In this document: positions 772-40,873 of the stretch, one piece after another
How the letters are laid out: each line of letters opens with the position of its first letter
How positions within the stretch are numbered: the stretch's first letter is position 1
IMG/VR virus record: IMGVR_UViG_3300041809_003467
Location: 1 to 41,331 of that record
Direction: 5' to 3' (one strand)
Length of the DNA stretch: 41,331 bases
Source of the DNA: a virus
Program-made: the position numbers and the translations under genes
Notes under the pieces: model-generated
Told to the model about the DNA's origin: nothing
What the model saw: only the letters and a program-made list of their open reading frames with translations
Databases searched by the model: none

Positions 772-3700
772 CTAGGTGATCACCCCACCAGAAACATATC
801 GGCCAGCCGCGATTGCCGCCGCGAGCGTCCCGTTGTAACCTGCGTTGCCAGCCATGGTAATCCCGTTTTGCCCATAGATCGTCGTACCGTAAGAGCTGGA
901 GATCTGCAGCCCGGTAATTGAAAGGGCGATCGCTGGTGCTCCGTTGTATATGATGCCAAAACCAGCCCAGGTTATATTGGCGACGTACAGCCCGGATGTG
1001 GCCGTCAGCCCGGCTGTGCTGTCAGAGACTGCAACTGTGCAGTTTGTCGTGACGATACTCAGCGATCCCCCGTTGATCGCCGGTGAAGTGAGTGCAGCGT
1101 TCGCAATGCTCACGCCGTTCTGATTGATCAGGACCTGCGCCAGGCCGCGCACGAAGGTAAAGCCGCTGTACCCAATGTAGATGCCGGGCAGACTGCATGC
1201 TTGCCAATAGGCAGGGTAACTGCCTGGGGCATAGCCGGCGCCAGGCGGTTGCACATAACAGGCGTAGTAGCTGGCGCCCACCGCCACCACGCTGCCGACA
1301 TAATATTGGGTACCGCCGCTGTAGGCCGGCGGAGGGCAGGTGATGGTCACACCGTTGGCGCTGGCTCCAAACTGCGCGCCGGTTGTGGAATTGGCAATGG
1401 TGCCGCCGGTCGAATTGAGTGTGAAGGTGTTGACGGGGCTCGGATACGAATCGCCTAGCACGATACCCGACCCGCCAAATTCCAGAAACTCCGGATTCGA
1501 GCTGAAATTGTTGATAAAGTACTGTGTGACGCCGCTTTGGAAAGTGATGGTCGAGTTCAGACCCAATGCACCGGCCACGTTCCCAAAATGTGGGCCAACC
1601 GGTAGGTAGCTGCCACCGACATAGAGATTGTTGGCATCGGTCGCCGTGGTCGCCGTGGCCGCTGTGGTAGCAGAGCCTGCCGAGGTTGCGTAAGTGGCAT
1701 TGGTCGCATTGGTCGCATTGGTCGCATTGGTCGCATTGGTCGCGTTCGTCGCATTCAGCACGGCGCCGTTCACCTGAGATCCCAGCACCTGTGAATTCGC
1801 CGGGTTCACCACCACGTCGTACCATTCGTTGCCCGACCCGTCCGTGTAGACCGTGCCGGCATAGCCCGACAGCCAGCAGGAATCTTGCTGAAACTCGGTA
1901 GCCTGGCCGCTGGTCTGGGTGATGCCGGTCCTCGAAGCCACCTTCCAACAGAATCGCAGCGTCGTGTTGGCATCGGAAGGCACGCCCCAATTTGCGATCT
2001 TGGCCACTACGCTATTCAGAGTCACCGAAGTGGCATCGCCGTCGTCTAGCACCGGGTCCAGTGTCGGGTGAAGACCTCCAGGCACGAATGATGCCCCAGT
2101 GCCCGCACCGGTCTGCACGTAAAGCCGCCCATAAAAGAAATTAGGATTCGGCGAGTACGGAAAGACTTGGGCCTGAATGTTATGGGCTGCTGGCGTTGTC
2201 CCATTCGCGCCGCGTGTCACCTGGATGCTCCCCGCGGTCGTCGTAACCTGCACGATTTCGGAGTCGATCTGGTAATAATCACCGGCCAGGTAGTTTCCCG
2301 GATTCAGCGCGGGCAGCGTCGCCGTCGAGTTGTTCATCGCCGACGCCAATGTGTCGATGCGAGTCGCCCCCTCTACGTAGCGTGGGAAAGTGGCATACAT
2401 TGCCAGTCCGAAAAGCCCTTGAGATCCACCGATGGTGTTCTGATAGGCCAAATTGTTGGCGTAGCAGCTCGACGCCATCGCGGACCCAGCCGCCGGCGGC
2501 GATACATTGAATGCCGCACTGACGACCGCACCCGCCATTAACGCAGGGTTCGTGCCGCCGGGGCTCCACGATATGGCGCCTGGGACCGCAACCAACTGTA
2601 CCGAATCCGTAGCGCCAGTCGGAGCCCAGAAGCCGGTGTTGCTGTTTGGCCCCCCAATCGTGATTATTGAGGCGCCCGCCGGCAATTGGTACCATTCCTG
2701 CCAGATAATGCCGGACACCGAGCCTACAGTCCAGAGCGTGTAAGTGCCGGGTTGGTTGACTGTAATCGAGGCCTGAAGTGTAGCCTGCACGCCGCCGCCG
2801 GCTTGATTCGTCCACAGCCCCACTTCACTCCCGCTGAGAGCCGTGATCCCTAGCGCTGGCACATTCAGACTGCCGATGCTGACTCCTGGCAGCGTGGGCA
2901 CGCCAATAGAGTTGTAGCTCACCAAGAGCAAGCTCCAGGTCTGCGCGGCCGCCGTCATCAGCATGGAATAGCTGAATGTCCCCGTCCACGCGAAAGCCGT
3001 GTAGTTGCCCGCGGTGAACCCGCTCAAGATTCCAATCGGAATCTGCTGCCCCGATGGGCTGACCGCGTACACGCAAATATAAGCGATCGCCGCGTACGTG
3101 CTCGGCAGCGTCAGTATGCTCGCAAAGGAGAATTGTGTTCCATTGCCCTGCCCCTGAGTTATGACCGTCGGCGCCGTTGACCTGCTGATGTTGGGCGCCG
3201 TCGTCACTCCCGTGGTTGTGACCGTCCCGTTTGGCACGTTCAACGCCGCCACTGTATAGGAGCTGACCGTCGGCACGCCGTCGATATTCAGCGGTACTAC
3301 GGTCGGCTGGAACGTCAGCACCGGTCCGCTCGTCGGCTGCGGATACAGCACGCTGGTCCAGTTGAGCACCGCGTTTGCCGTGAACGGCCCCATTAGCTTG
3401 TAAACCACCGTAGCCTGGCCGCTCGCCGTGTTCGTCATCACCACGTCGATTTCCGGGGTCGACCCCGGTGCTGGCCCCACAGTGACCGTTCCGCTGAACT
3501 GGTAGTACGGAATGCCGCCTTGCGTGATTCCGAGCGTCACTGTGGCCGTGAACCCTGCCACGTCCGGAGCCAGCGGATTGCCTTCCGCATCCACCGCATA
3601 CGGTCCCTGACCGGTGAAACACTTGGTTTGGATGGGCGATGGCCCAATCTCGTTCGCCACCCAGCAGCTCGCCGCCACCAGCGCCTGGCCCTGGAACGGT

Positions 3701-5163
3701 ATCTGCCCCAGCACCGTCGGCCAGTTCGGCGTCCCGTAGCTGAATAGCGGAATCGCGAACACCATCGTCTGTTCGCTTACCGGCCAGATCTTTGCGCCCG
3801 ACGCGTGCGCGGCCGCCGTCGACCCCAGCATTCCGCGCGCGATCACGGAGCCATTCGCGGCGTTCACCTGGATGATCTCCTGATCGATCGTCACATATGT
3901 CGGCTCGGTCTCCGCGAGCGTCGCCGGCGTGTTGGCGTCACTCGCCGAGCACGTCACATTGCCGCCGGTGTTCTGTAGAGCCGTTAGCACCACCGTCCCG
4001 CCGGTCGCCGTGGCGTAGGCGTTCGGATCGGCCGACGCGTCAATCACGTCGGCCAGCGCCGTGGCGATCGTCGCGTCCGTATCTTCGGTCTGCTGCTCGT
4101 AGGTGTACGTCGCCGCGCCGATCGAGATGCTGTGCACGTATCCCGGTCCGATCGTCACCGACCCTACCGTCACATTTGAGAAGTTGAACGTCACCGACCC
4201 CGGCGTCGACGCCGGCAGCGATCCGCTCGCGCTCAGCGATCCGGCCGCGGCCGTCAGCGCGGCCGTCAGCGTCAATGCAGTTCCGGCTGTCTCATTTACG
4301 TAGTACAGCAGAAACTCCGCGAACGCGATCTCTTCGCTATTGGTCGAACTCGCCAGTGTCAGGCCACCAATCACGAGCTGCGAGTTTGTCTCCGCCGCGG
4401 CGAAGTTCGGCAGTGGAGGAACTCCCGTGTCCTCGCCCACGCTTCCCAGCAGCAGCGACCCCGGCCCCGCCGGCACGATCGAGACTTCCGCGCCGCTGCC
4501 AATCTTCCGGCTAGAAATGGCGATGACCGATGTCGCGTTCGTCACCACCCAACCCACAGTCGCGTCCGTCGCGTTGTTCGGTGTCACCGAGTTCTTCCAA
4601 TACCATCCCGCCGTCGACGAGTAGAATAGCCAGCTTTTCTGTGACGCCGGTGCCGCCGGGAGCACCGGAGCCACGGCCGGATTGTAAAGCGTCGACTGTG
4701 CGAACAGCACGCCCTTGGTAATCGATGGGATCAGCTCGTTACCGGTTAGTTCGAACAGTGTCTGGCCCTGGTTCGTGCCACAGCTCAAGCTGGCCGAGCA
4801 GGCGATCGCCGCGCCGGTATTCTGCCGCGGCGTCAGCGTCAGCGTTCCCCCGGAAGACGTCGCCGTCGCCAGCGCGTCGGCCGCCGAATTGATCGCGTTC
4901 ATCAGATAAGACGCGATTGTCGTCGGCGTATCGCCATTCTGCTGTACGTACGAGAATACGCCGCCGCCGATGTTCACCCAGTGCTGGTACCCGGTGGCAA
5001 TATCGATAGTCACTCCGAGGACCGTGATGTTCGAGTTGGCGAACGTGAAGGAAATCGCAGCGCCGGTGCCAGGCGGTGTGCCGGAGTAATCCGGCGCCGA
5101 CAGCACGAAGCCCCCCACTACTCCGGGACGCTGAAAGGCCGGGTCTGCGAAGTAAACGGCCAC
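772..5163 (-). CDS. Tail tip/fibre protein, multi-domain (1463 aa)
   Basis: Largest protein of the element and last of the tail cluster, where distal tail and host-recognition proteins are encoded. It starts with GTG at 5163, two bases after the preceding stop. A beta-rich module occurs twice, at about residues 45-130 and 328-415; both contain a QQNGDTP/QQTEDTD-type turn followed by a QNTG motif. A second phage module with an (I)D-x-E-I-x-Q-V core and a downstream Ala-Ala-His occurs near 422-465 and 963-1000. Near residues 1136-1160 lie seven tandem Asn-Ala-Thr triplets. Residues about 1277-1324 are Tyr/Trp-rich with the spacing of carbohydrate-binding modules of the chitin-binding type. The C-terminal ~130 residues are Ser/Ala/Gly/Asn-rich like fibre tips. 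A role in receptor or glycan binding is inferred. Confidence 0.75.
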   Translation of the reverse strand: MAVYFADPAFQRPGVVGGFVLSAPDYSGTPPGTGAAISFTFANSNITVLGVTIDIATGYQHWVNIGGGVFSYVQQNGDTPTTIASYLMNAINSAADALATATSSGGTLTLTPRQNTGAAIACSASLSCGTNQGQTLFELTGNELIPSITKGVLFAQSTLYNPAVAPVLPAAPASQKSWLFYSSTAGWYWKNSVTPNNATDATVGWVVTNATSVIAISSRKIGSGAEVSIVPAGPGSLLLGSVGEDTGVPPLPNFAAAETNSQLVIGGLTLASSTNSEEIAFAEFLLYYVNETAGTALTLTAALTAAAGSLSASGSLPASTPGSVTFNFSNVTVGSVTIGPGYVHSISIGAATYTYEQQTEDTDATIATALADVIDASADPNAYATATGGTVVLTALQNTGGNVTCSASDANTPATLAETEPTYVTIDQEIIQVNAANGSVIARGMLGSTAAAHASGAKIWPVSEQTMVFAIPLFSYGTPNWPTVLGQIPFQGQALVAASCWVANEIGPSPIQTKCFTGQGPYAVDAEGNPLAPDVAGFTATVTLGITQGGIPYYQFSGTVTVGPAPGSTPEIDVVMTNTASGQATVVYKLMGPFTANAVLNWTSVLYPQPTSGPVLTFQPTVVPLNIDGVPTVSSYTVAALNVPNGTVTTTGVTTAPNISRSTAPTVITQGQGNGTQFSFASILTLPSTYAAIAYICVYAVSPSGQQIPIGILSGFTAGNYTAFAWTGTFSYSMLMTAAAQTWSLLLVSYNSIGVPTLPGVSIGSLNVPALGITALSGSEVGLWTNQAGGGVQATLQASITVNQPGTYTLWTVGSVSGIIWQEWYQLPAGASIITIGGPNSNTGFWAPTGATDSVQLVAVPGAISWSPGGTNPALMAGAVVSAAFNVSPPAAGSAMASSCYANNLAYQNTIGGSQGLFGLAMYATFPRYVEGATRIDTLASAMNNSTATLPALNPGNYLAGDYYQIDSEIVQVTTTAGSIQVTRGANGTTPAAHNIQAQVFPYSPNPNFFYGRLYVQTGAGTGASFVPGGLHPTLDPVLDDGDATSVTLNSVVAKIANWGVPSDANTTLRFCWKVASRTGITQTSGQATEFQQDSCWLSGYAGTVYTDGSGNEWYDVVVNPANSQVLGSQVNGAVLNATNATNATNATNATNATNATYATSAGSATTAATATTATDANNLYVGGSYLPVGPHFGNVAGALGLNSTITFQSGVTQYFINNFSSNPEFLEFGGSGIVLGDSYPSPVNTFTLNSTGGTIANSTTGAQFGASANGVTITCPPPAYSGGTQYYVGSVVAVGASYYACYVQPPGAGYAPGSYPAYWQACSLPGIYIGYSGFTFVRGLAQVLINQNGVSIANAALTSPAINGGSLSIVTTNCTVAVSDSTAGLTATSGLYVANITWAGFGIIYNGAPAIALSITGLQISSSYGTTIYGQNGITMAGNAGYNGTLAAAIAAGRYVSGGVIT
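1697..1750. repeat. 9-bp tandem repeat in the fibre gene
   Basis: Five perfect GCATTGGTC units (1697-1741) and one degenerate unit (1742-1750), in frame, encode Asn-Ala-Thr triplets on the minus strand. Copy number could change by slippage without breaking the frame because the unit is a multiple of three. Confidence 0.95.
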
Positions 5164-22660: not shown

Positions 22661-22866
22661 CAGATCGCCACTCCCAGCGCCAGCCACTCATGCCGCGCGA
22701 TCGTCAGTTGCTCCGGAAACGGAATGTCGAGCACCTGTTGCTCCGGTGAGCACTCGCAATGGTCTTTGCACCGGTTGCACGTCCGGCATACCAGCTCGTC
22801 CATGCAGCCGCACGGGAAGTCGCCGGCGGCGTGCCACATTTTCTTGCAGCATTCGCAGTGCTTCAA
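22660..22866 (-). CDS. Small Cys-rich zinc-binding protein (68 aa)
   Basis: A TTG at 22866 overlaps the TerL stop (TTGA) and was chosen because no ATG fits; TTG is rare but the pattern is repeated in this operon. Residues 4-38 carry eight Cys in CxxC, CGC, CRTC and CxC groups and a His (CECCKKMWHAAGDFPCGC), a probable double zinc site. Between TerL and portal such a protein may help packaging or be a nuclease-like accessory; it has no catalytic motif. Confidence 0.6.
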   Translation of the reverse strand: MKHCECCKKMWHAAGDFPCGCMDELVCRTCNRCKDHCECSPEQQVLDIPFPEQLTIARHEWLALGVAI

Positions 22867-24257
22867 AAGACACGCTCCAACAGGTCTGAGGCGACCGTCC
22901 GCCCCGTCAGCCCGCAATCGCTAGCCGGCACGTAAACCCGCCCCGGCCCTTCCACGCCGGCCACCATCAGCGCCAGCGCCCAGAATTCATCCGCGTGCCC
23001 CGCGTCCGTCCGTACGGCGTCGAACCGGATCGCGCCCGTCGGCCCCACGTACCGCTTGATCGCCTGGCACGCCCGCCGCAGTTTCTGCGATTCCGGCAGC
23101 CGCAGTGTCCGCTCTTCGAACCGTTTCTTCAGCGAGACCGCCATCCGCTCTTTCACCGGCACGGTCACTTCCTTGCCGTCTTCCTTTTTTCCACCGCTCT
23201 CGACGCGCGCTCCAAACTGCACCGGCTCCACGCATGGGAACTCCTCATGCAGCTCTTCGGCGAGCTGCGCGCCCAGCCCGGTCGCGTCCATCGGGAACCG
23301 GCCGCCGCTATCCTCGACCGCCGCCGCCACTTCGCGCGCGATCTTTCTCTGGTCGGCAAACCGCATGCGCGGCATCTCGATCATGCCCTTCACTACCACC
23401 AGGTCCGCCATCGGCTGCCCGATCACGATCACCGACATGTCGCGTTTGCGCGCCACGTCGAACCCTGCGCACAACCCCGGCGCCGGCTTCCCGTCCCACT
23501 CGATCGATGCTTCGTCCGATTCGCACGCCAGCACCATCTCGATCGGGATGTAGTTCTCGGCCCCCGACATCGGCACGTTGCAGTAGTCCTGAAGCCAGAT
23601 TTCCTCGTCGCCGATCGCCGCCCTCTGCCCCTCGACATCCACCGGCATTCCCTGTGCCTTCGCCATGAAGATGTCCACCCAGTGCCCGCTCCACCCGTCG
23701 CGCTTCACAGGTTGCCGCTCCGGCCGCACGCCGGTGTGCAGCCCCAGCGTCTTGGCCAGCTCGTAGAACTTGTTTTCCGTCCCCTTGAACGTCGAGGCCA
23801 CCCGCACCTTGTAGCCGCGCGTCGCGCGCGTCATCATTGCCGCCCAGATCGACCGCGAGTCGCGATGCAGTGCGAACTCGTCAAGGAACACATCGCCGCT
23901 ATAACCGCGCGCCGTGTCCGGATTCGCTGGCAGCGCGATCAGCCGACCGCCGCCAGGGAACACCGCGCGATGCTCGATGATGGAGGTCTCGCCGAAGAAT
24001 CCGTCGTCGAAGTGCGCGTCCCAGGCCCGCGTGTGCATCTTGACCTTTTCCATCAGCTCGACGCTCTGCCGCTCCGACGCGCTGAGCAGAATCCCCAGGT
24101 TCCGCTCTTCCATCCGGTCAATCGCCATGTCCAGCGAAGTGCCGAACGATTTCCCCGACTGCACCGAGGCCGCCACAAACTTGAAGCGGCTCTTGTCGGC
24201 GATCCAGTCCAGTTGCCACTGGAGCATGGGAACGATCGGTTTGATCGCCGGAGTCAC
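22863..24257 (-). CDS. Terminase large subunit, Mu gp28-like (464 aa)
   Basis: Packages phage DNA. ATPase half: Walker A SVQSGKSF (residues 31-38, Lys36), Walker B VFLDEFA (Asp126, Glu127), and an ASTFKGTENKF motif. Nuclease half: acidic residues Asp267 (GFDVARKRD), Asp324 (MDATGLG) and Asp423 (DAGHADEFWALAL) in RNase-H-like order. The length fits Mu gp28. A GTG at 24257 overlapping the previous stop (GTGA) is chosen; the open frame begins earlier but shadows the small zinc gene. It probably cuts host flanks headful-wise like Mu. Confidence 0.92.
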   Translation of the reverse strand: MTPAIKPIVPMLQWQLDWIADKSRFKFVAASVQSGKSFGTSLDMAIDRMEERNLGILLSASERQSVELMEKVKMHTRAWDAHFDDGFFGETSIIEHRAVFPGGGRLIALPANPDTARGYSGDVFLDEFALHRDSRSIWAAMMTRATRGYKVRVASTFKGTENKFYELAKTLGLHTGVRPERQPVKRDGWSGHWVDIFMAKAQGMPVDVEGQRAAIGDEEIWLQDYCNVPMSGAENYIPIEMVLACESDEASIEWDGKPAPGLCAGFDVARKRDMSVIVIGQPMADLVVVKGMIEMPRMRFADQRKIAREVAAAVEDSGGRFPMDATGLGAQLAEELHEEFPCVEPVQFGARVESGGKKEDGKEVTVPVKERMAVSLKKRFEERTLRLPESQKLRRACQAIKRYVGPTGAIRFDAVRTDAGHADEFWALALMVAGVEGPGRVYVPASDCGLTGRTVASDLLERVF

Positions 24258-24456
24258 GCCGCCTTCAGCTCCTTCGCCGCTACCGGCAGCTTCGTATGGC
24301 AGCAATTGCAGAACGCTTCGTCGATCACCTTGCTCGTCCGCGCCACGCGCCTGACCTCACCCGCGATCCGCATCCACACGTCCGAAACCGTCGTGGTAAT
24401 GCTGAACCCGGTTACCAGCGCGGATCCGCTCCGCACTTCGGGCAATTGATCTGCAC
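24254..24456 (-). pseudogene. Zinc-ribbon gene broken by a 5-bp duplication
   Basis: GTG 24456 follows the upstream TAA by one base, as in the other operon joints, and reads VQINCPKCGADPRW to a stop. The -1 frame continues GSALVTG... to FCNCCHTKLP, and ends overlapping the TerL start. The two Cys pairs of a zinc ribbon are therefore in two frames. A tandem repeat of GCGGA at 24425-24434 explains this: removing one copy joins the frames and gives a continuous ribbon of about 65 residues. The downstream part could alternatively start at TTG 24445. A real mutation, a sequence error, or recoding cannot be told apart here. Confidence 0.6.
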
Positions 24457-24457
24457 C

Positions 24458-25003
24458 TTAGCCTGCGATGCCATAAATGCTCCGGATCTCCTGTATCCGC
24501 TCTTCCGGCGTCATCTGCCGTTCGCCGCCCTCGGCCTTCAGCAGCTTGATCGCGCGCTGTTCCCTGTCTTCCAGGAGCGCCATCTTCCGCTCGTCGATCG
24601 CCGCCACCCGCTCGCGCACCGCGATCTCGCGCTCCTTCAGTTGGACCTTCTTCGCGTCGAGTTGCAGCCCGTGCAGCTCGATGGGGTCCGCGCCCGTCAG
24701 CGCTTCGGGGTGCTCCACCAGGTGATCGATAGCCAGCGCCTGGATCATCTCCGTACCGTCCATCCCCTGTTCGCGCATCGCCGCCACCAGGTCCGACATG
24801 TGCTCGCGCCGCGCTTTCCGGTCCGCCATCTCCTGGCGCCATTCGGCCGCGCGCCGCGCTACCGTCCGCTCTGCGAGTTCCTCGCCCGTCTCATCCTTCA
24901 CGGCCTGCACGATGCACGCGGCCGTCTTGCCGGCGGCGAAGCCTTGCAGCATCGTTCGCTTGCCCGCATCGGAGATTTTGTCCGTCGCTCTCTCCATCGG
25001 CAT
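24458..25003 (-). CDS. Mu gp27-like protein, probable small terminase (181 aa)
   Basis: Matches the DUF3486/gp27 type: an N-terminal helix-turn-helix region (AGKRTMLQGFAAGKTAACIV, KDETGEELAERTVARRAAEWR), then a long coiled coil (LQLDAKKVQLKEREIAV). ATG 25003 overlaps the previous stop (TGATG). Directly upstream of TerL (with one small gene between), as Mu gp27 before gp28. Likely recognises pac DNA. Confidence 0.8.
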   Translation of the reverse strand: MPMERATDKISDAGKRTMLQGFAAGKTAACIVQAVKDETGEELAERTVARRAAEWRQEMADRKARREHMSDLVAAMREQGMDGTEMIQALAIDHLVEHPEALTGADPIELHGLQLDAKKVQLKEREIAVRERVAAIDERKMALLEDREQRAIKLLKAEGGERQMTPEERIQEIRSIYGIAG

Positions 25004-25344
25004 CAGAAGGTAACCAGCGGATCCGCCTCGATCTGCCCGTCGATTAGCAGCAGTCCCTTGGGTGCCAGGCGCGCGAACATGATCGTATCCGGCCTCATTT
25101 CGTTCACCCGGTCCGCGCGCCACTTCCCCATCGCCTTCGCGCGCCAGATCTTGATGTACTCGGAATCGGCCAGCAGCGATAGCGAGAACTGCAAACCCTC
25201 CACAGTCATTGGCGATCCGACCATATTGAGCGCCTTCGACAGTGAGCCCACACTCACCATCTCCTGGTCGTATCCCTGTTTGAGCGCGAGCAATATCGCG
25301 CCCCGCTCCTCCGCATGCCGCGCCTCTTCCATTTCCCGGATCAC
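25003..25344 (-). CDS. Mu gp26-like winged-helix protein (113 aa)
   Basis: Short helical protein with a winged-helix look: VSVGSLSKALNMVG, MTVEGLQFSLSLLADSEYI and an ADRVNEMRPDTIMFARLAPKG end. In Mu the small gene 26 precedes 27. GTG 25344 overlaps the previous stop (GTGA). The role is unknown, perhaps packaging or late DNA binding. Confidence 0.6.
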   Translation of the reverse strand: MIREMEEARHAEERGAILLALKQGYDQEMVSVGSLSKALNMVGSPMTVEGLQFSLSLLADSEYIKIWRAKAMGKWRADRVNEMRPDTIMFARLAPKGLLLIDGQIEADPLVTF

Positions 25345-25664
25345 GCCACTCTCCTACTCGCCTCCAACTTCACCGACTGCAACTGATCGTCTATCCGGAT
25401 CAAGTAGCCTTTTTGCATCTCGATCCGGTCCGCCAACAACCGCACCGCCATCAGTACTTCGCGGTCGTCGTTTCTCCCGTCCTTCACGGCCTGTGCCAGG
25501 TTCGCCGTCGCCGCCGCTTGTGTCGTCATCGCCTGCACCTGCTGCGTATGCGCCTCCAGAAATTTCCCCGCCCAGTTGTTGATCAGGCTCCACATCATCC
25601 AGCAGAAGCCGCCCGCGCCGCCGTAATTCACGACGAGCTTTACCAGCCATTCCCACTGCGCCAT
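25341..25664 (-). CDS. Membrane-anchored coiled-coil protein, DUF2730-like (107 aa)
   Basis: One hydrophobic segment at about residues 8-28 (VVNYGGAGGFCWMMWSLI) followed by an amphipathic helix rich in Gln/Ala/Glu (about 30-100). This fits the Mu gp25/DUF2730 shape. ATG 25664 overlaps the hydrolase stop (TGATG), so it is translated with the exported cassette upstream. Could be a spanin- or holin-related protein; the family is not certain. Confidence 0.6.
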   Translation of the reverse strand: MAQWEWLVKLVVNYGGAGGFCWMMWSLINNWAGKFLEAHTQQVQAMTTQAAATANLAQAVKDGRNDDREVLMAVRLLADRIEMQKGYLIRIDDQLQSVKLEASRRVA

Positions 25665-27328
25665 CAAAATATCCCCCCTCGGGCCGGGGCCGACGCCACC
25701 GGGCAGCGGCTCAGTCCCGTTCCTAGACAGTTATTTACGCCGGTCAACGCTCTGAACTCGCCGTACCCGACAGCACTTGTAATCGGCGATGGCTGCTGGG
25801 TCCAGTCGGCACCGTGATCGCTTTGCCCCGCCGTGTAGCTCGGTTGCGCAAACACGGTCATCGTGTAGTTGGGTTGCGTACTCAGTAGTTCCGCCTCTGG
25901 GGTAAAGCTGGGATCAGCACTACCGCGCTGAAAGTGAACCATAACGGGGCTGGTGTTTCCGGCCAGTGACCAAGAATAAGGCCCCGTCGCCGCACATGAC
26001 GTGTAGCAGGCGCTTGGTGTAGTACAGGTTGCCTGGAGCGCATTGTCCACCGACCAGCTCGACTTCGTGACATTCCCGTCTCCCATGTCGGCTGAGATAG
26101 TAATTGAACCTGTCGAGGAGTTGTACGCGGTCACCGTGCCTTCTAAATAATCCATGTTGGCGTCTGCGGTTTCAACGGCACGCGCGCGGTTACCCGCAGC
26201 CCAACTCAACCCGGCTCCCACTGTCAACGTAACTGAAGTAGGAAAAGTCGCCGGGATTGTCGCAGAAGTCGAGCTTGTGGTGTAGTACCCCGCGTTCCAA
26301 CCGCTGGTGCAGGCCGGGAGCGCTCCGCAACCACAATTCTGCACGCTGATCTGTGGAGCATAGTTACTGGCAAGTGCTTGGCCCCAGTTCGTCAAGCGTT
26401 GATAAGCCAGGTTCGACTCGATGGCCGGACTGCCGACCACAACCGCCACGCGGCCAGGATCGTAAACCGTCCAGTTAGTGCTGCTCCACTCCGAGTATCC
26501 AGGCGTGCCGGATGAGTTGTTAAGATAAGTGCAGGTGGAACCGAGATTGCATTTACCGATGCCGATGAATTGCAGAACGAGGTTCGCGCCGGAACTAAGC
26601 CCGGTGAGTATGATCTGATTCGGATCGCCGGGGATGGAGTAGGTCGAGCACGCCCCAACGCCAGGAGCGGACCCACCTGCCGAGCACTGGCCCAAAAAAG
26701 ATAGCAGCGACGCGATGTCATTCAGCGCTACAGGCAACTGGATCGACGGGATAATCCCGAACGCGCCCGAGGCGTGCGAATTGGCGACCGACGAAACGGT
26801 AATCGTGCCGGATGCACTGCACGGGCCGCTGATCGCAGTCACGTTCATTACTTCCCCGTCGATTGAGAGTGTCCACGATGGCGAAACGCCTGTCGGACAG
26901 AACGTGAAACCGGCGCCGCCTGTCGTGGTGTACGGATACGCCGTTGTCGGGATGACAACATTGCTTCCCGCCGTGATCGCGGAACGCAGCGTAAATATGG
27001 TGTTCAGCGTGTATCTGGGAAGCAGGACGGTGTACCCGTCCAGCGCCATCTGAATGGCGTAATCCTCATTCATCCCGTTGACGAGCATCCCGGTGAGGCC
27101 GCCGCCGTGAACGGCCACAATAATGGGGCTGGTCTTGGAAGAGACGCCTTTCGCCGTGCCGTAATACAGATCGTAAGCCCGTTGATCCTCCCCGGGGACA
27201 GTGGAAGAGTTGCTCGACCAGGAGACGTTGCACACCGTCGTCACGCCACCGGAAGTCCCCGCTGTGCAGGTATAAGGGAGAGCCCGCGCGGAAACCGAAA
27301 GGAGTATAAGTGCAAGGAGTTTACGCAT
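25664..27328 (-). CDS. Exported alpha/beta hydrolase with nested tail-fibre modules (554 aa)
   Basis: Residues 1-16 are a Sec signal peptide (MRKLLALILLSVSARA). The esterase-type fold shows the oxyanion motif HGGG (74-77), nucleophile elbow G-L-S-S-G with Ser245, Asp472 (GSADPSFTP) and His505 (SDHGADW). Two segments interrupt it. Residues 152-192 carry an IDGEVMNV...HASGA module also found twice in the phage tip protein. Residues about 352-428 carry a classical tail-fibre module (SSTSATIP, then LEGTVTAYNSSTGSITIS, then SSWSV). Likely cleaves an ester on a polysaccharide or other polymer. The short ATG 27328, four bases after the previous stop, beats an upstream ATG because it leaves an intact signal peptide. 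Confidence 0.8.
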   Translation of the reverse strand: MRKLLALILLSVSARALPYTCTAGTSGGVTTVCNVSWSSNSSTVPGEDQRAYDLYYGTAKGVSSKTSPIIVAVHGGGLTGMLVNGMNEDYAIQMALDGYTVLLPRYTLNTIFTLRSAITAGSNVVIPTTAYPYTTTGGAGFTFCPTGVSPSWTLSIDGEVMNVTAISGPCSASGTITVSSVANSHASGAFGIIPSIQLPVALNDIASLLSFLGQCSAGGSAPGVGACSTYSIPGDPNQIILTGLSSGANLVLQFIGIGKCNLGSTCTYLNNSSGTPGYSEWSSTNWTVYDPGRVAVVVGSPAIESNLAYQRLTNWGQALASNYAPQISVQNCGCGALPACTSGWNAGYYTTSSTSATIPATFPTSVTLTVGAGLSWAAGNRARAVETADANMDYLEGTVTAYNSSTGSITISADMGDGNVTKSSWSVDNALQATCTTPSACYTSCAATGPYSWSLAGNTSPVMVHFQRGSADPSFTPEAELLSTQPNYTMTVFAQPSYTAGQSDHGADWTQQPSPITSAVGYGEFRALTGVNNCLGTGLSRCPVASAPARGGIF

Positions 27329-27332
27329 GGTT

Positions 27333-28595
27333 TTAGTGGTGGCGCGGAACCACACTCACGCCGCCGCCTACCGGAGCAATATACCCGGCGTAAGACATGG
27401 CCAATGTGGTGGCGCCGGGAGAACCCGCGGTGTTGGTCAACAACGTGTCGAGCAGATCCCACTGACTTACAGAGAAACTCAGGCCCGTTGACGTGCAGTA
27501 GACAGCGCTCGCCCCGGATATCGAGCACTCCACCGCCGTTTCGGTCGTCGCATTGTCCCGCAACTGGTATTCTTGGGTAGCGGAAGCTCCGGGCGCGGCG
27601 GCGCGGAGGGCGGCGAAGGCCGCGATCTGCATAGCCGGAAACACCATCTGCGCATTGAGTTCCGGCGTCTCGGCATAGCACCTGTTGGCCACCTGATACC
27701 ACTCAGCAGTGGTCTGCGCAGTGTTGCGGAAAGCCGGGATGATGAACTGCCCCAGTGTCGTCGGAACAAAGACGATAGATATATAGTAGTTCTGGTTCAC
27801 TGCGGTGCCGGCAGGTGCCGAGACGTTGAACTCGACCACGTCGCCAGCGCTTACTGCCTGTGTGCCAGTCAGTGCGGTGACGCTATTGGTTCCGGTCGTC
27901 AGCGAGGCGGTTAGAACGGTTGCAGGCGTGCCACCGGAAGCGGCCCACATGAAATTATATACGACCGTTTCGCCGGTTCCGTTCGACGGCATCTGCACGT
28001 AGGCTTTTTTGAACGTGCCAGGAACAGGTATCACGGTGTAGCCGTTGGCTGCCCCGTTGGTGAAGACTCCCGTTCCGAGTCCACTGTACTGGTTAGACGA
28101 GCCGCTGGGCGTGCCGCCCGAACTCCCAAAGATTGTCTCCCCTTCAACCGTGGGCACAAAGCCCACGTACCCGCTCATCAGGGTTGCCGTGGGTGAACCC
28201 GATATCTGCTGCTCAACGGAGATGTAATCCCCGAGGGCCACCGATACGCAATGGCTGGTGTCAGCGCCGGCGGTGGCGGACCCGGTAATTGTCACCGCCG
28301 GTGCGCCGCTTGGGATCGAACCGTTTTTGTAGAGCGAGAACGTCCAGGATGTGCTCCCACCTGGAGCGGTGTGCAGCCACGCGCCGATTGAACAGATTTG
28401 TCCTCCTGTCGGCACGAGGAAATTAGTCTGGTTGGTGTTGCCGGACGTGTACTGGTTGCTCGACTGTAAAGCATACCACTCGTTGCCGACCGTGATATTA
28501 GTGCCGCCCGTCGGCCCGAACCACAGGTACTGCGTGGTGGTTTGGGCGCAGGCGCAGGCGACGAAGGCAAACAAAAGAATCAACAGTTTTCGCAT
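27333..28595 (-). CDS. Exported triple beta-sandwich protein (420 aa)
   Basis: Signal peptide MRKLLILLFAFVACACAQ. After it come three similar beta-sandwich units, about residues 58-148, 183-278 and 300-410, of the kind used by phage and bacterial surface fibres. The first two carry Gly-Asp turns (LGDYISVEQ; AGDVVEFNV) and end in GFVPT and VFVPT; the third is more diverged. Start 28595 comes one base after the previous stop. It has no catalytic motif. The two upstream and one downstream neighbours also carry signal peptides, so export seems intended. Confidence 0.65.
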   Translation of the reverse strand: MRKLLILLFAFVACACAQTTTQYLWFGPTGGTNITVGNEWYALQSSNQYTSGNTNQTNFLVPTGGQICSIGAWLHTAPGGSTSWTFSLYKNGSIPSGAPAVTITGSATAGADTSHCVSVALGDYISVEQQISGSPTATLMSGYVGFVPTVEGETIFGSSGGTPSGSSNQYSGLGTGVFTNGAANGYTVIPVPGTFKKAYVQMPSNGTGETVVYNFMWAASGGTPATVLTASLTTGTNSVTALTGTQAVSAGDVVEFNVSAPAGTAVNQNYYISIVFVPTTLGQFIIPAFRNTAQTTAEWYQVANRCYAETPELNAQMVFPAMQIAAFAALRAAAPGASATQEYQLRDNATTETAVECSISGASAVYCTSTGLSFSVSQWDLLDTLLTNTAGSPGATTLAMSYAGYIAPVGGGVSVVPRHH

Positions 28596-28596
28596 G

Positions 28597-31284
28597 TTAG
28601 TAAGTCCCTTTGAACGCCATCGAGATCTGCTTTGTAGTACCGTCCGCAACAAAAGTCAGTTTGATAAAGCCGCCAGACGCGATGGTTGTAGTGCTACCCT
28701 GTGTCCCGCTCGCGTACGTGTTGGCGCTTGATGGCGTGATCGCGCCGGTCAGTAACGCATTCCCTGATCCATCCGTCGCATTGCAGCTGGTAGAACCGCT
28801 GGCGTTGTCCACCGCGCACAGGATGCCGGTGAGCGTAACCGTCTGGCCGGTCCAGTTGAAACAGTTATTTTGAAGGTAGGTCTGTGCTGGAATGGCATTG
28901 TAGCCATCACCGAGGCCACCGCTTACACAACCCCACGGGCGCGCGCCGACTTCCGCGGCCACAACTTGCGCAGCGGTGGCCGCCGCTGGTGGACCCGTGG
29001 TCGAATCAAATTGGATACCGTTGATTGCCACGCCGCCGACTTGAGCGGTTGTCCCCGCCTGGGTGTAGTAGCTCACGTCGTATTGTGCGAAAGGCGACAC
29101 CGTTCCGCTTCCGCCGCTCGAAGTTCCGCAAGGCGCGGTCGCATCACCAATCCTGACAAGGTTCCCAACTTTCGTAATCGTCGCGCAATCCCCATTGGTA
29201 TACGAACCCAGCGAAGCCACAGGGATAGTCAACTCCATGGAGTCCACCCCTCCCGTGTAGTTGTGGTAAGCACCTACGGTGGTGTCTTCCAACAGGCATT
29301 TGGCGGTACCGCACGTCCCACCAGCCGAACCCGGCACGTACAAGCTAGCAGCCGAGAAGTCGTACAAATGAGCCCCGAACGTTGCCGCCGCTGTGATATA
29401 CACGAGGTTCGGGGCATCGCTGAGGTTCGTGCTGGCCGGTTGCGTCTGATGCTGTCCGGCGTGATCGATATACGATACCCACTCGTTGGCGCTAGCAGTG
29501 GCGTACTTCACGTAGCCATATTCGTTGCAAGCGCTGTCGTACTGGTGGAGTGTCAAATCCGTGGAATCGAACCATGGCAGCACGTAGCCCGCTGGCGGGA
29601 ACGTGCCAGAAACACACGTTGGCGCCGTCGCAGTCGCGGGCATCGACCAGCCGGTGCCGTTCGGGCTCGCGAACACCCAATAGCTCGCCCCGTCGTAATA
29701 GCCGAAATAGCTCGTCTCCGCGCCGAGATACGGCAGCGGAGGCCCGGCATTCGGAAAGATACCACCCGCCGGCCAAGCCACGGCGGTAAGCGTCGTGCCG
29801 CCCTGCGTCAGCAGAATCGAATGGTTGTTCCGCGACCAATTCGATATTGAGAATGTGATCGCAGATTGATTGCTCAGCGCGATCTCATAATTCAGGAAGG
29901 GCGCAACCCCGGAGGGCGTGCCTACACAAGCGGTCTCGCTGATCGCGAAGGAAGCCGCCGCAGTCGTGATGCTGCAAGTTCCCGCCGTGATCTGGTGGCC
30001 GCGATCGGAGCCGGGGAGTTCCACCCACACCAGCGTGCCTGCGCAGGCCGACGCGCAAGCAGACCGAACGCTAGCCACTGAATCCACAATCGGGACGGTA
30101 TTGGAGCTGTTGTTACCGGAATCGTGAATATACCCGGCAGTCGTGGTCGATGGCGCAATGATATCGCCAATTGTGGTAGTGCCATTATCGAGCAAGATCT
30201 GCGCAAAACCGACTTTCTGCACGTTTACGGAACCCGCCGCGCCCACGGTCGCCAGCGCCACGCCGTACCATGTCGTAGCCGATGTAGTTACCTCAACCAC
30301 CTGGCAAGTGGCCGCGCCCGAACTGCTATCCAACATGACCAGCGTATTGGCCGTAACGCCGCCCGCGCCAACGGTGCAGGATTGAATCACGGCAGGCACG
30401 CTCGCCGCCGTCCCGGCCGTATTCTGATTCAGGGTCGGGATATCGCCCGCCACCAGCGAACACGGCCCGAAAATCGTAGCGCTGCCGCATGTGCCAATCA
30501 CCTGGTGCGGTCCCTGGCCGGGAGTGGGCGCGATGCCGATATTGCCGTTCGATGTCAGCGGGTTATTCGACAGCGTGAGCCATGCCACCGACGAAAGAGC
30601 CAGGCCGACCGAAGATATTCCCCCACCCGCGCCGGGGCATGTGATCCACGAAGCCGGACCGCTGGACGGCACGCTGTAGCACCATGTGCCGACACCCGGA
30701 GTGGCAAGTCTCGCCGGCGCGCCAGCGGCACCGCCCACGATCATGTCATACGGCGACGTCATCGGGTTATTCAGCACTGCGAACGTGCCGAGCCCGAGAT
30801 TTGTGCGCGCGTTCGCCGCGTTCGCCAGGTCGGAGAGATTATTCGCGGCTTGCAGAAACGCGCCAACGTTCTGCACCGCGGCTGTCCCCAATCCCAGACT
30901 TGTGCGCGCGTTTGCCGCGCTCGCCAAGTCAGTCAGATTATTCGACGCCTGAAGAAAAGTTGGCGCCCCTGTGATTTTGCCCCACGCGAGACCGGTAATC
31001 CACGCCGGATTATTGAACGTTCCGTTCGCTGTGACACGCTGTGTCCAGGTGCCCGGATTCCCCGTGCCGATGCAGTCGTACGTATTCAATCCAGCCGTGT
31101 CGAAATAGTGATCCCTGCCGGCGGTGCAAGCCTGTGTGCTGGGTGCCCCCGTGCCGGACTGCCAGTTCGCCTTGCCGTTCATCGCGCCATACAGATTGGA
31201 GGCCGCCGTCTGCGTCGAGAAGTCGTACCACTGCGCCAGCGCCGGCATGCAGCAGGTGGCCACGATGAGGAATAAACGTTTCAT
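28597..31284 (-). CDS. Exported tail-fibre-like protein (895 aa)
   Basis: Signal peptide MKRLFLIVATCCMPALAQ, with a GGGAAGGA site before ATG 31284. Residues about 105-165 hold two copies of the tail-fibre repeat (LQASNNLTDLASAANARTSL; LQAANNLSDLANAANARTNL), each followed by LGLGT, then Gly/Ser/Thr-rich segments with a Ser-Pro/Gly pattern and scattered Cys. The C-terminal ~200 residues are compact beta-type sequence, with a Thr/Ser-rich shoulder and the ending FKGTY. Fibres normally assemble in the cytoplasm, so the export signal is odd. It may be an adhesin-like surface fibre or a shed receptor-binding copy. Confidence 0.7.
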   Translation of the reverse strand: MKRLFLIVATCCMPALAQWYDFSTQTAASNLYGAMNGKANWQSGTGAPSTQACTAGRDHYFDTAGLNTYDCIGTGNPGTWTQRVTANGTFNNPAWITGLAWGKITGAPTFLQASNNLTDLASAANARTSLGLGTAAVQNVGAFLQAANNLSDLANAANARTNLGLGTFAVLNNPMTSPYDMIVGGAAGAPARLATPGVGTWCYSVPSSGPASWITCPGAGGGISSVGLALSSVAWLTLSNNPLTSNGNIGIAPTPGQGPHQVIGTCGSATIFGPCSLVAGDIPTLNQNTAGTAASVPAVIQSCTVGAGGVTANTLVMLDSSSGAATCQVVEVTTSATTWYGVALATVGAAGSVNVQKVGFAQILLDNGTTTIGDIIAPSTTTAGYIHDSGNNSSNTVPIVDSVASVRSACASACAGTLVWVELPGSDRGHQITAGTCSITTAAASFAISETACVGTPSGVAPFLNYEIALSNQSAITFSISNWSRNNHSILLTQGGTTLTAVAWPAGGIFPNAGPPLPYLGAETSYFGYYDGASYWVFASPNGTGWSMPATATAPTCVSGTFPPAGYVLPWFDSTDLTLHQYDSACNEYGYVKYATASANEWVSYIDHAGQHQTQPASTNLSDAPNLVYITAAATFGAHLYDFSAASLYVPGSAGGTCGTAKCLLEDTTVGAYHNYTGGVDSMELTIPVASLGSYTNGDCATITKVGNLVRIGDATAPCGTSSGGSGTVSPFAQYDVSYYTQAGTTAQVGGVAINGIQFDSTTGPPAAATAAQVVAAEVGARPWGCVSGGLGDGYNAIPAQTYLQNNCFNWTGQTVTLTGILCAVDNASGSTSCNATDGSGNALLTGAITPSSANTYASGTQGSTTTIASGGFIKLTFVADGTTKQISMAFKGTY
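30791..30957. repeat. 68-bp imperfect direct repeat in the exported fibre gene
   Basis: Copies at 30791-30858 and 30890-30957, 99 bases apart (33 codons), encode the two fibre repeat units. They differ at scattered, mostly third codon positions, so they are an old duplication rather than recent slippage. Confidence 0.85.
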
Positions 31285-31294
31285 GCTTCCTTCC

Positions 31295-31864
31295 CTAATT
31301 TCCGATGCTCGCCAACTGACTGTTCGTCAACGTCGATAGCTGACTGTTCGTCAGCGTCGATAAGCTAAGCCCGGTACCCGATACCGAGCCTGGACAGCCG
31401 CTCTGTGTCAGCGTCACGGCGCCGTTGGTCACCTGCACGCAATACGTGCCGTTCGCCACCCCAGCCGTAAGTTGCCCCAGGGAAAACATCAGGCTTACCG
31501 ACGGCGGAATATTGATCCTCACCGCCGCGAGACTGAGTGTGCTCCCCGTCGTAGTAACTAACCAGTAGTCCGTCCGCGGCGCCGCGCCGTCCAACTGCCA
31601 TTTCGCGATGTAACTCGTCGTGGATGGAATGCCCGTGTCATTCGGCTCTAACTGAACCGAGAAAGCGCCGTTGATCACCGGCACAGACAGCGGGGTAGTT
31701 TCCACCCAGGTGCCATCGGCGGCTAGGAAAGCCGCGGACGCGGTAATAGTGATCTTCCCCGTCGCCAGGTGCTGTCCGTCGCCGGCCGTGATTTTCGACT
31801 GTGCGACCGTCGTTGATGCCGCCAATGCCACCGGGAGCCACAGTGCGATCGCCAGCCTCAGCAT
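31295..31864 (-). CDS. Exported fibre-associated protein (189 aa)
   Basis: Signal peptide MLRLAIALWLPVALAAS. Residues about 25-120 form a beta domain of the kind found at the start of phage fibres (VINGAFSVQLEPNDTG, YIAKWQLDGA, DYWLVTTTGSTLSLAAV). The C-terminus has two STLTNSQL units, then LASIGN. ATG 31864 has AGGGAG eight bases upstream and overlaps the previous stop by seven bases. First gene of the exported cassette. Probably an anchor or chaperone for the large fibre-like protein; inferred. Confidence 0.6.
   Translation of the reverse strand: MLRLAIALWLPVALAASTTVAQSKITAGDGQHLATGKITITASAAFLAADGTWVETTPLSVPVINGAFSVQLEPNDTGIPSTTSYIAKWQLDGAAPRTDYWLVTTTGSTLSLAAVRINIPPSVSLMFSLGQLTAGVANGTYCVQVTNGAVTLTQSGCPGSVSGTGLSLSTLTNSQLSTLTNSQLASIGN
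31314..31361. repeat. 24-bp tandem direct repeat at the end of the fibre-associated gene
   Basis: Two 24-bp units (31314-31337 and 31338-31361) differ at two positions and encode the STLTNSQL octapeptide twice. The repeat is in frame. Confidence 0.9.
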
Positions 31865-32178
31865 TTCGCGAGCTCCCTTCGCACCACCGCGGACACCCGG
31901 CGGTGGTTGCGCTGGCAACCCGCCAACTCGCAGAACGCCTCGCGCAAGCGGTCCTCCCGCTCGTATCCCGGCCCGAAGTTCTTACATACGACCTCCACCA
32001 TCAGAAACAAAATCCGCTCCACGTTTCCGATCCGTTCATCCATCCTAGTGATGCTCGACGGATTGCCCAAGAGCCCCATCGAGCGGGAAGGCCGTCCGGG
32101 TGTGCCGGCATCGAGGCGCGTGCCGCGAGGCGGCCCTATTTCCTCGCCATCGCGCCGTATTTTGGCCTTCCCGCTCAT
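31858..32178 (-). CDS. Hypothetical protein before the exported cassette (106 aa)
   Basis: ATG 32178 follows the membrane gene's stop (32186) by seven bases. The N-terminal 45 residues are Arg/Gly/Pro-rich; the rest is a helix pair (RMDERIGNVERILFLMVEVV) and a Cys-containing basic end (FCELAGCQRNHRRVSAV). An internal ATG at 32043 could give a 61-residue form starting MDERIG. No family recognised. Confidence 0.5.
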   Translation of the reverse strand: MSGKAKIRRDGEEIGPPRGTRLDAGTPGRPSRSMGLLGNPSSITRMDERIGNVERILFLMVEVVCKNFGPGYEREDRLREAFCELAGCQRNHRRVSAVVRRELAKC

Positions 32179-32185
32179 CTCGCAG

Positions 32186-32365
32186 TCACAGTATGGGCCG
32201 ATGCGGCCAAAGTAGTATGGCGGCCGCCAGCGCCAGGAAACACAGCATCGCGATCGCCGCGCGCCTCACCATTGCCGCCTGCATCCGCGACCACCGTTCG
32301 TACCGTGCGCACCGCGCGCAGCAGGCCTTCACGCACAGCCAATAATGCACTCGCTCGCTTCTCAC
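32186..32365 (-). CDS. Small membrane protein with Cys cluster (59 aa)
   Basis: This frame is not the longest here but fits best. GTG 32365 overlaps the GemA stop (GTGA). It reads a Cys-rich basic start (LCVKACCARCARYERW) followed by a membrane helix near residues 36-53 (AIAMLCFLALAAAILLW) and a short tail. A longer frame in the same place is Arg/Ala/Gly-rich shadow. It may anchor or regulate something at the membrane; function unknown. Confidence 0.5.
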   Translation of the reverse strand: MRSERVHYWLCVKACCARCARYERWSRMQAAMVRRAAIAMLCFLALAAAILLWPHRPIL

Positions 32366-32790
32366 GCCACACCGTCCCTTCGATTCATCGCCCGCAGTCC
32401 GCCCATCACCCGCACGAAATCCTTGCGCGATCGGATCGTCTCGCGACCGCGTAGTTGCCGGCGCACGAAATTCCGTTGTCCGTCCGCGCCCAGGCCGCGT
32501 GCCCCAAACTCACGCGCTAGGTCTTCCAGGTCGCCCGCGGACACTATCTCGTCGCCCTTCCCCGCCAGCTCGCCCCGCTTCGGCAGCGTACCTGCGCGCT
32601 TTAGACCCTTGCCCGTCCATCCGCGGTAAATCGCCAGGAGCTGCTCGTCCGTCAGCTCTGACATGGAGTGCACGCCGTAGCGCTCGCGCGCCAGATCGTG
32701 CAGCGCGTCGTGATCGAGCCCGCGCTTCACGGCCTCCGCATGCACCGCGGAGAATAGCCGATTCCGATATCCCTTCTGCGGTCCTGGCAT
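32362..32790 (-). CDS. gemA: GemA / Mu gp16-like regulator (142 aa)
   Basis: The middle (residues 10-70: RLFSAVHAEAVKRGLDHDAL, then HSMSELTDEQLLAIYRGWTG) matches the gp16/GemA family of transposable phages, here followed by a basic helix region. GemA influences host gene expression and DNA supercoiling in Mu. The ATG at 32790 directly follows the previous TAA. Next to Gam-type and regulator genes, as in Mu's semi-essential early region. Confidence 0.8.
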   Translation of the reverse strand: MPGPQKGYRNRLFSAVHAEAVKRGLDHDALHDLARERYGVHSMSELTDEQLLAIYRGWTGKGLKRAGTLPKRGELAGKGDEIVSAGDLEDLAREFGARGLGADGQRNFVRRQLRGRETIRSRKDFVRVMGGLRAMNRRDGVA

Positions 32791-33456
32791 TTATTCGCTC
32801 CCTTCGATCGCCGAGCGTTCGGTGAGGCTCGACACCGGCCGGCTGAAGACCATCGATTTGAACCACGTCTGGTCGACGCGGCGCAGATCGTACTCGCCCG
32901 GATAACGGCGCAGGAATCGCACCACCGCGTCTTCCGACACGCGCAATCCCTCGCGCTCCCGGACGGCTCCCAATAATCCGCGCCGCATCCATCCCCGCGC
33001 CGTCGGCGCCCCAACCCCCAGCACTCCCGCCAGGTCGGAGATGTTGTACCCCTCCTGGACCCGAGCCGAAAGCGCCAAATGCGACGCGCGATCGCGTACG
33101 CTGCCCATGCTCCGTTTCAGCCGCGCCGCGATCACGCGCGCCGTCAGGATGCCGATGTGATCCGCGAGAAATCCGTCTTCCTCCGCCGTCCATTCCCGCC
33201 GATTGAATGACAGTCCCATCTCTTGCGCCATCTGGTGAAAGACGAATCGCGGCCACTTAGTAGCAGCCTCTAACTTGTCGATAGCCGCCGCCCGCTCATT
33301 CTTCCGCAACCTATAAGCGGCTTTCAAGTCGGCTATAAGTTGCGGATTCCAGATATACCGCCGTCGTAACTCGCCAAACCGTCTTAGGCGGCACGAACGG
33401 CAGAGACCTAGCTTCCCCTGGCTTGGCCGTTCGTCGCATCTAAGACAGTTCGCCAT
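32791..33456 (-). CDS. Zinc ribbon plus SANT-like and MerR-like DNA-binding protein (221 aa)
   Basis: Residues 1-22 hold CLRC and CRSC, a zinc ribbon. A basic helix region follows (RFGELRRRYIWN). Residues about 89-130 look like a SANT/Myb repeat (WTAEEDGFLADHIG, then RSMGSVRDRASHLALSA). Residues 135-165 contain a MerR-like HTH (YNISDLAGVLGVGAPTARGW), and a basic DLRRVDQTWFKS end. This mosaic is found in phage early regions. It likely binds DNA as a middle regulator; targets unknown. Confidence 0.7.
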   Translation of the reverse strand: MANCLRCDERPSQGKLGLCRSCRLRRFGELRRRYIWNPQLIADLKAAYRLRKNERAAAIDKLEAATKWPRFVFHQMAQEMGLSFNRREWTAEEDGFLADHIGILTARVIAARLKRSMGSVRDRASHLALSARVQEGYNISDLAGVLGVGAPTARGWMRRGLLGAVREREGLRVSEDAVVRFLRRYPGEYDLRRVDQTWFKSMVFSRPVSSLTERSAIEGSE

Positions 33457-40217: not shown

Positions 40218-40658
40218 ATGAAAAATCCGTGCCGCGAGCTGCGCGAGTTGTTGGCTGTGAACCAGGCTGACTTCGGCCGCCTGATCGGCCGGTCGTTTCA
40301 GTCGGTGCGCGCGTACGAAAAACACCCGTCGGACATACCGGCCGACGTGATTGAGCGCATCAAATCCCTGGCTGCCGAGCGCGGCCATGCCGACTGGGCC
40401 GTATTCCTATCCAGCGATGAGTGGCGCGCGGTGAGCGTGTTGCAGCCCGGCGAAACCTTGATCGGCGCACGGCAAACGGAAGGCCCCAGGCCGAAGCTCG
40501 CCACAACGCGCGACCCCGCCACGTTACACTCAATGCTGGATGACATTCTGGAGAGCGAAGACCCCGACGCTATCCAGGCCGTTGTCCCGAATCTTGAACT
40601 ATTTCATAAGTGGGTGAAATTAAAGGGCAAGAACAAAGCAAAAAGAAAACGGGCCTAA
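40218..40658 (+). CDS. Repressor-like HTH protein (146 aa)
   Basis: Divergent from the early operon at the phage's regulatory end, place of Mu c. ATG 40218 has AAGGGA eight bases upstream. An XRE-type HTH at about residues 6-32 (RELLAVNQADFGRLIGRSFQ, SVRAYEKHPS) and a DIPADVIERIK end; the rest is mixed with an acidic patch, then a Lys/Arg-rich tail. A plus-strand -35 like TTGTCA (40150-40155) and weak -10 TAGATA (40174-40179) precede it. It likely maintains lysogeny; binding to the dyad is inferred. Confidence 0.7.
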   Translation: MKNPCRELRELLAVNQADFGRLIGRSFQSVRAYEKHPSDIPADVIERIKSLAAERGHADWAVFLSSDEWRAVSVLQPGETLIGARQTEGPRPKLATTRDPATLHSMLDDILESEDPDAIQAVVPNLELFHKWVKLKGKNKAKRKRA

Positions 40659-40672
40659 ATGTATTATTTAGG
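40654..40672 (+). terminator. AT-rich hairpin overlapping the repressor stop
   Basis: CCTAAAT and ATTTAGG form a perfect seven-pair stem with a GTATT loop, covering the TAA stop. No T run follows, so termination by itself is doubtful. It could act in mRNA stability or as a site near the phage end. Confidence 0.35.
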
Positions 40673-40684
40673 TGAGAATGTGGT

Positions 40685-40690
40685 TATAAT
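40685..40690 (+). promoter_or_regulatory. Consensus -10 box after the repressor
   Basis: TATAAT at 40685-40690 in the otherwise GC-rich region, without a good -35 at the proper distance; a TG lies two bases upstream of it. Could drive the small ORF and exported protein gene to the right. Confidence 0.4.
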
Positions 40691-40741
40691 ATCGGCGTAT
40701 TGCCCCCTGGTAAACTCCCAGTCACGCGGGAGGAAGTTGAA

Positions 40742-40873
40742 GTGCTGATCGAATTGGAAGAGCAACTGGCGCGCCTCGCTCAGTTTGCTGCTCAGCAGCG
40801 CGTTGAGATCCTTCGCCGGCTGGTGCGGGATGAGCCTGCGCCGAACTTGACCAAGATCAGGAGAATCAAATGA
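40742..40873 (+). CDS. Small helical protein coupled to the right-edge gene (43 aa)
   Basis: GTG 40742 has GGGAGGA seven bases upstream, and the TGA overlaps the next ATG (ATGA). The product is a charged helix (LIELEEQLARLAQFAAQQRV). A TTG at 40700 would give a 57-residue form starting PPGKLPVTREE. It could be a leader protein or a small partner of the exported protein. Confidence 0.5.
   Translation: MLIELEEQLARLAQFAAQQRVEILRRLVRDEPAPNLTKIRRIK

Follow-up and report, generated by a model that had tools for sequence, protein, structure and literature searches.

Four consecutive late genes of a Mu-like phage of soil Acidobacteriota, S1 to S4, very probably encode exported proteins, and it is nearly as probable that these proteins derive from tail fibres, making the block a tail-fibre (receptor-binding) cassette that would have been rerouted via the Sec pathway. 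The same exported-fibre design is found in related phages, in a phage-derived element and in some host genes; the site of action of the fibres is therefore probably outside the cell, in place of the usual incorporation into the virus. The reading we favour, with a probability of about 0.4, is that the phage benefits from an action of the fibres chiefly on the host envelope.

Four genes packed into the late operon of a transposable phage

The window, i.e. the whole stretch of 41,331 nucleotides that was analysed, is an IMG/VR viral contig without an attached host genome. MuA, MuB, Gam and gp16, together with the order of terminase, portal, protease and capsid genes, mark it as a Mu/B3-like transposable siphophage. 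Family matches were obtained to phrog_310 (E=3e-70), phrog_296, phrog_491 and phrog_286 and to terminase, portal, protease, capsid and tape measure. The minus strand carries MuA, MuB, Gam, regulators, gp16, the S1-S4 block, 107 aa and 113 aa genes, TerS and TerL, followed by portal, protease, scaffold, major capsid, lysis, neck, tube, tape measure and tail genes. Relatives of its TerL include phage B3, the nearest cellular terminase relatives in a genome scan are the Acidobacteriia MAGs L082 and L083, and the close relatives found by terminase scan range from 84 to 49% identity. On the plus strand, at 40218-41331, a repressor-like ORF is accompanied by a signal-peptide ORF running to the contig end; these may be phage repressor and host flank.

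An earlier note on this DNA had placed four ORFs on the minus strand inside a Mu-like late operon, and both their positions (Table 1) and this setting were confirmed: the block is packed tightly into TerS with gaps of -7 to +10 nt, and from the 106 aa ORF through TerS no intergenic gap exceeds 10 nt. The block also lies, as proposed, between early regulators (reg221/gp16) and packaging genes (107aa-113aa-TerS-TerL), and the S4 stop overlaps the next start as TGATG, but that next gene is a small membrane-protein-like ORF and not itself a packaging gene. By analogy with Mu, a late promoter likely lies in the gap after gp16, for which no sigma-70 consensus was reported. Promoter-like sites numbered 6 against 2.3 expected, all of them weak 9-of-12 matches; the same scan gave no enrichment of terminators, and no internal promoter stood out within the block. 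The G+C content of the block is lower (0.60 versus 0.63).

Table 1. Positions of the S1-S4 block, its neighbours and related features in the window
Feature	Position	Strand	Remarks
gp16-like (phrog_286) and D5-like regulator	32362..33456	-	upstream boundary
Gap of 183 nt after gp16	32179..32361		likely late promoter place
106 aa ORF	31858..32178	-	first gene of packed operon; overlaps S1 start by 7 nt
S1, 189 aa	31295..31864	-	Sec signal peptide and ~110 aa anchor domain (predicted)
S2, 895 aa	28597..31284	-	Sec signal peptide and tail-fibre shaft repeats, NLTDLASAANARTNLGLG type
S3, 420 aa	27333..28595	-	Sec signal peptide; Ser/Thr/Asn/Gly-rich; no family match
S4, 554 aa	25664..27328	-	Sec signal peptide and putative alpha/beta hydrolase (esterase-like); two insertions, one a phage-tail module
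S4 catalytic motifs, span	25805..27109	-	putative
S4 HGGG	27098-27109	-	putative oxyanion motif
S4 GLSSG	26588-26602	-	putative GXSXG nucleophile
S4 Asp (SADP)	25910-25921	-	putative catalytic
S4 His (SDHGAD)	25805-25822	-	putative catalytic
107 aa small membrane-protein-like gene	25341..25664	-	start overlaps S4 stop (TGATG)
Downstream genes	22863..25344	-	113 aa (phrog_436), TerS-like (24458-25003), TerL (22863-24305)
1463 aa tail protein (phrog_1101)	772..5163	-	repetitive fibre-like C-terminus, no signal peptide

Signal peptides on all four proteins

Sec-type signal peptides had been proposed for the four products, and all four indeed begin with an n/h/c signal sequence. Leaders were called with a rule-based scorer, distinct from SignalP, that looks for a positive n-region, an uncharged h-region and an AXA-like site. 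The leaders are MLRLAIALWLPVALA in S1, MKRLFLIVATCCMPALA in S2, MRKLLILLFAFVACACA in S3 and MRKLLALILLSVSARA in S4, with predicted cleavage before A, Q, Q and L, respectively; S4 passes when the start at 27328 is used. The scorer marks 140 of 2280 predicted genes (6.1%) versus 25 of 2280 shuffled N-termini (1.1%), and from the real-gene rate four leaders in a row are expected by chance at ~1e-5. Furthermore, in nine contigs (the window and 8 relatives) signal-peptide genes make up 19 of the 35 genes in the slot between gp16 and the 107aa/113aa genes versus 21 of 256 elsewhere (Fisher p=5e-10). Chance hydrophobic starts were rejected on the basis of the shuffled N-termini and this slot enrichment.

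Tail fibres are taught as cytoplasmic proteins. The premise that ordinary ones lack signal peptides held in 8 of 8 controls, a small set of six viral-contig fibres that share a module with S4 plus LIT1 ORF53 and BFK20 gp21, and no report of a signal-peptide-bearing tail fibre was found in the open-licence literature. In this respect the block departs from phage tail-fibre/RBP cassettes, which are cytoplasmic. It is very improbable that the hydrophobic starts fail to work as signal peptides and that the products stay in the cytoplasm as ordinary tail fibres: the leader prediction is rule-based and the block does have fibre content, but genes with no other relation to one another have each retained a full leader with its AXA-type site, standalone host proteins bear the same leader, and most other virion genes are without one.

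The late region of the window holds two more signal-peptide genes, SP195 (16013-16600) and an SLT lysin (14726-15256). Signal-peptide proteins between capsid and lysis genes occur in the window (16013-16600), L002 (17524-18069) and L008 (18532-19041) and have no detectable relation to one another; the L002 protein ends in Phe and resembles a small outer-membrane barrel. Cysteine averages 1.48% in exported proteins versus 1.01% in the remaining proteins of the clade (p=0.0013), reaching 2.5% in S2 and 2.8% in S4, which is modest evidence that would fit oxidative folding.

A predicted anchor domain, shaft repeats and an esterase-like protein

In the clade alignment, conservation of the block among relatives was found solely in the first ~130 aa of S1 (66% in L002, 26-54% elsewhere). 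AlphaFold2 on eight sequences predicts a beta-sandwich for the mature domain (pLDDT 81). By Foldseek, this model matches the Bxb1 tail tip best among PDB entries (E=2e-4); the DEV collar and the neck and tail fibres of cyanophage A-1(L) have weaker E-values at a probability of 0.98-1.0. In BFVD 30 matches have E-values below 1e-3, and tail fibre or minor tail protein is the annotation of many of these. The predicted fold of the S1 mature domain is thereby that of anchor domains by which phage tail fibres dock to the virion, the anchor expected of a tail-fibre/RBP cassette. LIT1 ORF53 and BFK20 gp21, both in the structural match list, differ from the block in that their domain starts at Met1, with no leader. 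Single-sequence scans of viral contigs gave no relatives of S1, S3 or S4; none of these three was found in the phage collection, where S2 matched solely through its repeat.

Beta-sandwich or fibre modules had been claimed for three of the genes. This holds for S1, by prediction, and for S2, which has tail-fibre repeats (phrog_2282, E=3e-21), but S3 has no family match and its beta-sandwich is unproven. The putative alpha/beta hydrolase assignment of S4 is based on its motifs: HGGG, GXSXG (with Ser245 as putative nucleophile), Asp and His follow one another in catalytic order, the order known from HSL/BD-FAE-type esterases; its Pfam BD-FAE match, however (E=0.0027), scores 17.7 bits against a curated cut-off of 26.8. 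A single-sequence AF2 model of S4 has a pLDDT of 33, and no match to S4 was found in solved structures. Its second insert occurs in six viral tail-fibre-like proteins (none of the six with a leader), and the other insertion had no match among the compared sequences. An 87 aa insertion in S4 (window 26729-27007) has an IDGEVMNV...HASGA motif that by eye is like stretches of the 1463 aa tail protein, with no profile match. S4 has no match at E<=1e-6 in 199 Acidobacteriota genomes, which lends no support to capture of a near host esterase as its source.

The same parts are split or fused among relatives

Across the nine contigs the slot proteins are mostly unrelated to one another, and slot content changes within the clade: L002 has five signal-peptide genes there and L082 four, L004 has a fused gene of 413 aa, and L008 has genes of 409 and 128 aa. 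Of the signal-peptide genes of L005, one is in the slot and three others are further down; the slot of L007 is empty, but a signal-peptide fibre of 570 aa follows its capsid genes, and L083 has a signal-peptide fibre of 1132 aa between portal and protease. In L004 and L007 the S1 domain is joined to fibre repeats, in L008 to collagen, and in L083 to collagen plus a weak SGNH lipase-like match. In these fused versions, leader and S1 domain precede the fibre, collagen or SGNH parts. A neighbouring slot gene in L002 encodes a lectin-like Laminin_G_3 domain (E=1e-14). The S1 domain is the conserved part, with shaft, collagen, lectin, SGNH or alpha/beta hydrolase as variable followers. The block thus has the shaft repeats and variable receptor-binding or enzymatic tips of a tail-fibre/RBP cassette, and it resembles known cassettes (LIT1 and KPP21 SGNH-esterase proteins, BFK20 gp21, Bxb1 tail tip, DEV collar) in anchor fold and in modular variable tips that include esterases. 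That the same parts are split or fused among relatives suggests that S1-S4 make one fibre, each split part with its own leader.

The S1 domain in Acidobacteriota genomes

An S1-domain profile found the domain in 28 of 297 Acidobacteriota genomes, in 0 of 195 genomes in the phylum of L112 (a Verrucomicrobiota MAG) and in 0 of 299 in that of L096 (a Gammaproteobacterium MAG). Large signal-peptide proteins that contain fibre repeats account for most of the Acidobacteriota finds; their genes lie in a compact syntenic element together with capsid, connectors, terminase, HipA-like, DUF3037 and portal genes. This phage-derived element of Terriglobales, ~20 kb long and present in L154-L172 (e.g. L162/L178, L163/L182/L183, L161/L180, L155/L184), has a 323 aa capsid throughout, a HipA-like kinase and a signal-peptide fibre; no integrase was seen in it, and it is a candidate domesticated prophage or gene-transfer-agent-like element. 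It adjoins lpdA/lipB/E2 in the four genomes tested, three of which also have it near purE/purK, and from this shared neighbourhood it is probably vertically inherited. It is possibly the same as acidobacterial prophage 'Cluster 153', a Terriglobus-rich prophage group, for which the passages found mention neither exported fibres nor a fixed chromosomal site (PMC5900883).

Searching with a Terriglobales-only alignment added 4 viral contigs. L193 (G001:C258) shows the exported fibre in a third phage-like setting: a signal-peptide S1-collagen protein lies downstream of large tail-tip genes and is cut by the contig end. Standalone host genes with the S1 domain, 425-441 aa long, are found in L158, L189, L191 and probably L190 (short contig); a Flp-pilin-like ORF adjoins such genes in two genomes (L158 8408-10021, L189 8247-9933). 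A leader was scored in 39 of 40 S1-domain proteins, the exception (L126) having a leader-like start by eye that the rule missed. The S1 tree groups broadly by element type, with an unresolved root and several long branches; origin by capture of a host surface gene was considered, and these features of the tree leave the direction undecided.

Between the Mu-like clade and the Terriglobales element, no virion proteins were detectably related (maximum HHalign probability 2.6%, from profiles that are shallow and in some cases single-sequence). An S1 domain common to Mu-like phages, the Terriglobales element and host genes, where the first two have no related virion proteins, suggests a common partner in the cell envelope. 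This bears on the possible, though doubtful, alternative that the exported fibres fold in the periplasm and attach to virions via the S1 anchor once compartments mix after lysis, and so are true virion fibres. Docking would agree with the predicted fold of S1, with leader cleavage leaving its domain N-terminal as in LIT1 and BFK20, with a conserved anchor and variable tips, with the lack of any other fibre candidate found in the Terriglobales element, and with the place of the L193 fibre, which is the usual one for tail fibres. It has to contend with two phage-type lineages that have no detectable common virion partner and with standalone host copies that have no virion genes nearby. Moreover, the 1463 aa tail protein of the window, which may be an ordinary virion fibre, may already supply one, and fibres exported into a receptor-bearing envelope would be partly sequestered.

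Precedents among surface proteins

By analogy, the closest precedent for the block is the mosaic adhesive trimer (MAT) fibres of Bdellovibrio, which have a leader, a conserved ~130 aa beta-rich domain, a phage-like fibre and diverse adhesive tips and act at the surface (PMC10769870). The likeness, in that a signal peptide precedes a conserved beta-rich domain of ~130 aa, is one of architecture alone, as compared with the published description, and the MAT genes are chromosomal genes of a predator, in contrast to the phage late genes here (PMC10769870). Display on the lysogen to the benefit of the host, as a surface adhesin gained by lysogenic conversion, has this precedent (PMC10769870) and would suit the standalone chromosomal genes, two of them beside Flp-pilin-like ORFs, and a Terriglobales element apparently kept vertically. 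We nevertheless consider it unlikely for S1-S4, since genes packed in the packaging operon, with no outstanding internal promoter, are not expected to be expressed in the lysogen. PblA/PblB of Streptococcus mitis phage SM1 are likewise phage-encoded surface proteins that serve as adhesins, but they reach the surface of a Gram-positive host via holin/lysin permeabilisation and have no Sec leader (PMC2920869).

A possible action on the host envelope

The earlier note had read the block as an exported fibre/hydrolase system of late infection, perhaps one that is shed or surface-bound and modifies the receptor, or a surface adhesin. Leaders, fibre/hydrolase content and late-operon membership support this reading in part, and the predicted S1 anchor fold, the recurrence and the host genes with the same leader and domain strengthen it. 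From the leaders, operon packing, predicted fold, enzyme-like motifs and recurrence, all read from the sequence, we infer how leader cleavage, timing, assembly into one fibre, target and benefit might fit together. S1-S4 would be read late, together with the packaging genes, and the leaders would be cut off just before each mature domain. The pieces would fold outside the cytoplasm, perhaps with disulfides, into a split fibre with S1 as anchor end, S2 as shaft, S3 as a further fibre part and S4 as enzymatic tip, a layout that relatives encode in one polypeptide. The exported fibre would bind and deacylate the host's own envelope glycans used as phage receptor, which would both save progeny from being caught on the dying cell or on its debris and exclude co-infecting phages. 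Superinfection exclusion by T5 Llp and phi80 Cor likewise relies on phage-encoded envelope proteins that block the receptor, but these are small lipoproteins that have no relation to fibres or to enzymes.

Action on the host envelope is favoured since it is there that receptor-binding and esterase parts, once exported, would first encounter the receptor glycans. Against it stand the predicted anchor fold, best known for virion docking, and the conserved anchor beside hypervariable tips, a pattern typical of functional virion fibres; that no route for S1-S4 across the outer membrane was identified also counts against it.

Phages, a phage-derived element and host genes all have signal-peptide fibres with anchor domains, a phylum-linked recurrence which means either that some phages complete their virions outside the cytoplasm or that they send fibres to work on the host envelope. 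The former is a possibility to which we give well below an even chance: a tailed phage would complete its virion with Sec-exported composite fibres, folded and oxidised in the periplasm, that dock via the S1 anchor at lysis. If true, extracytoplasmic virion completion would be a strategy followed generally by phages of Acidobacteriota. Exported phage fibres could also help to explain the origin of bacterial fibre adhesins of the MAT kind.
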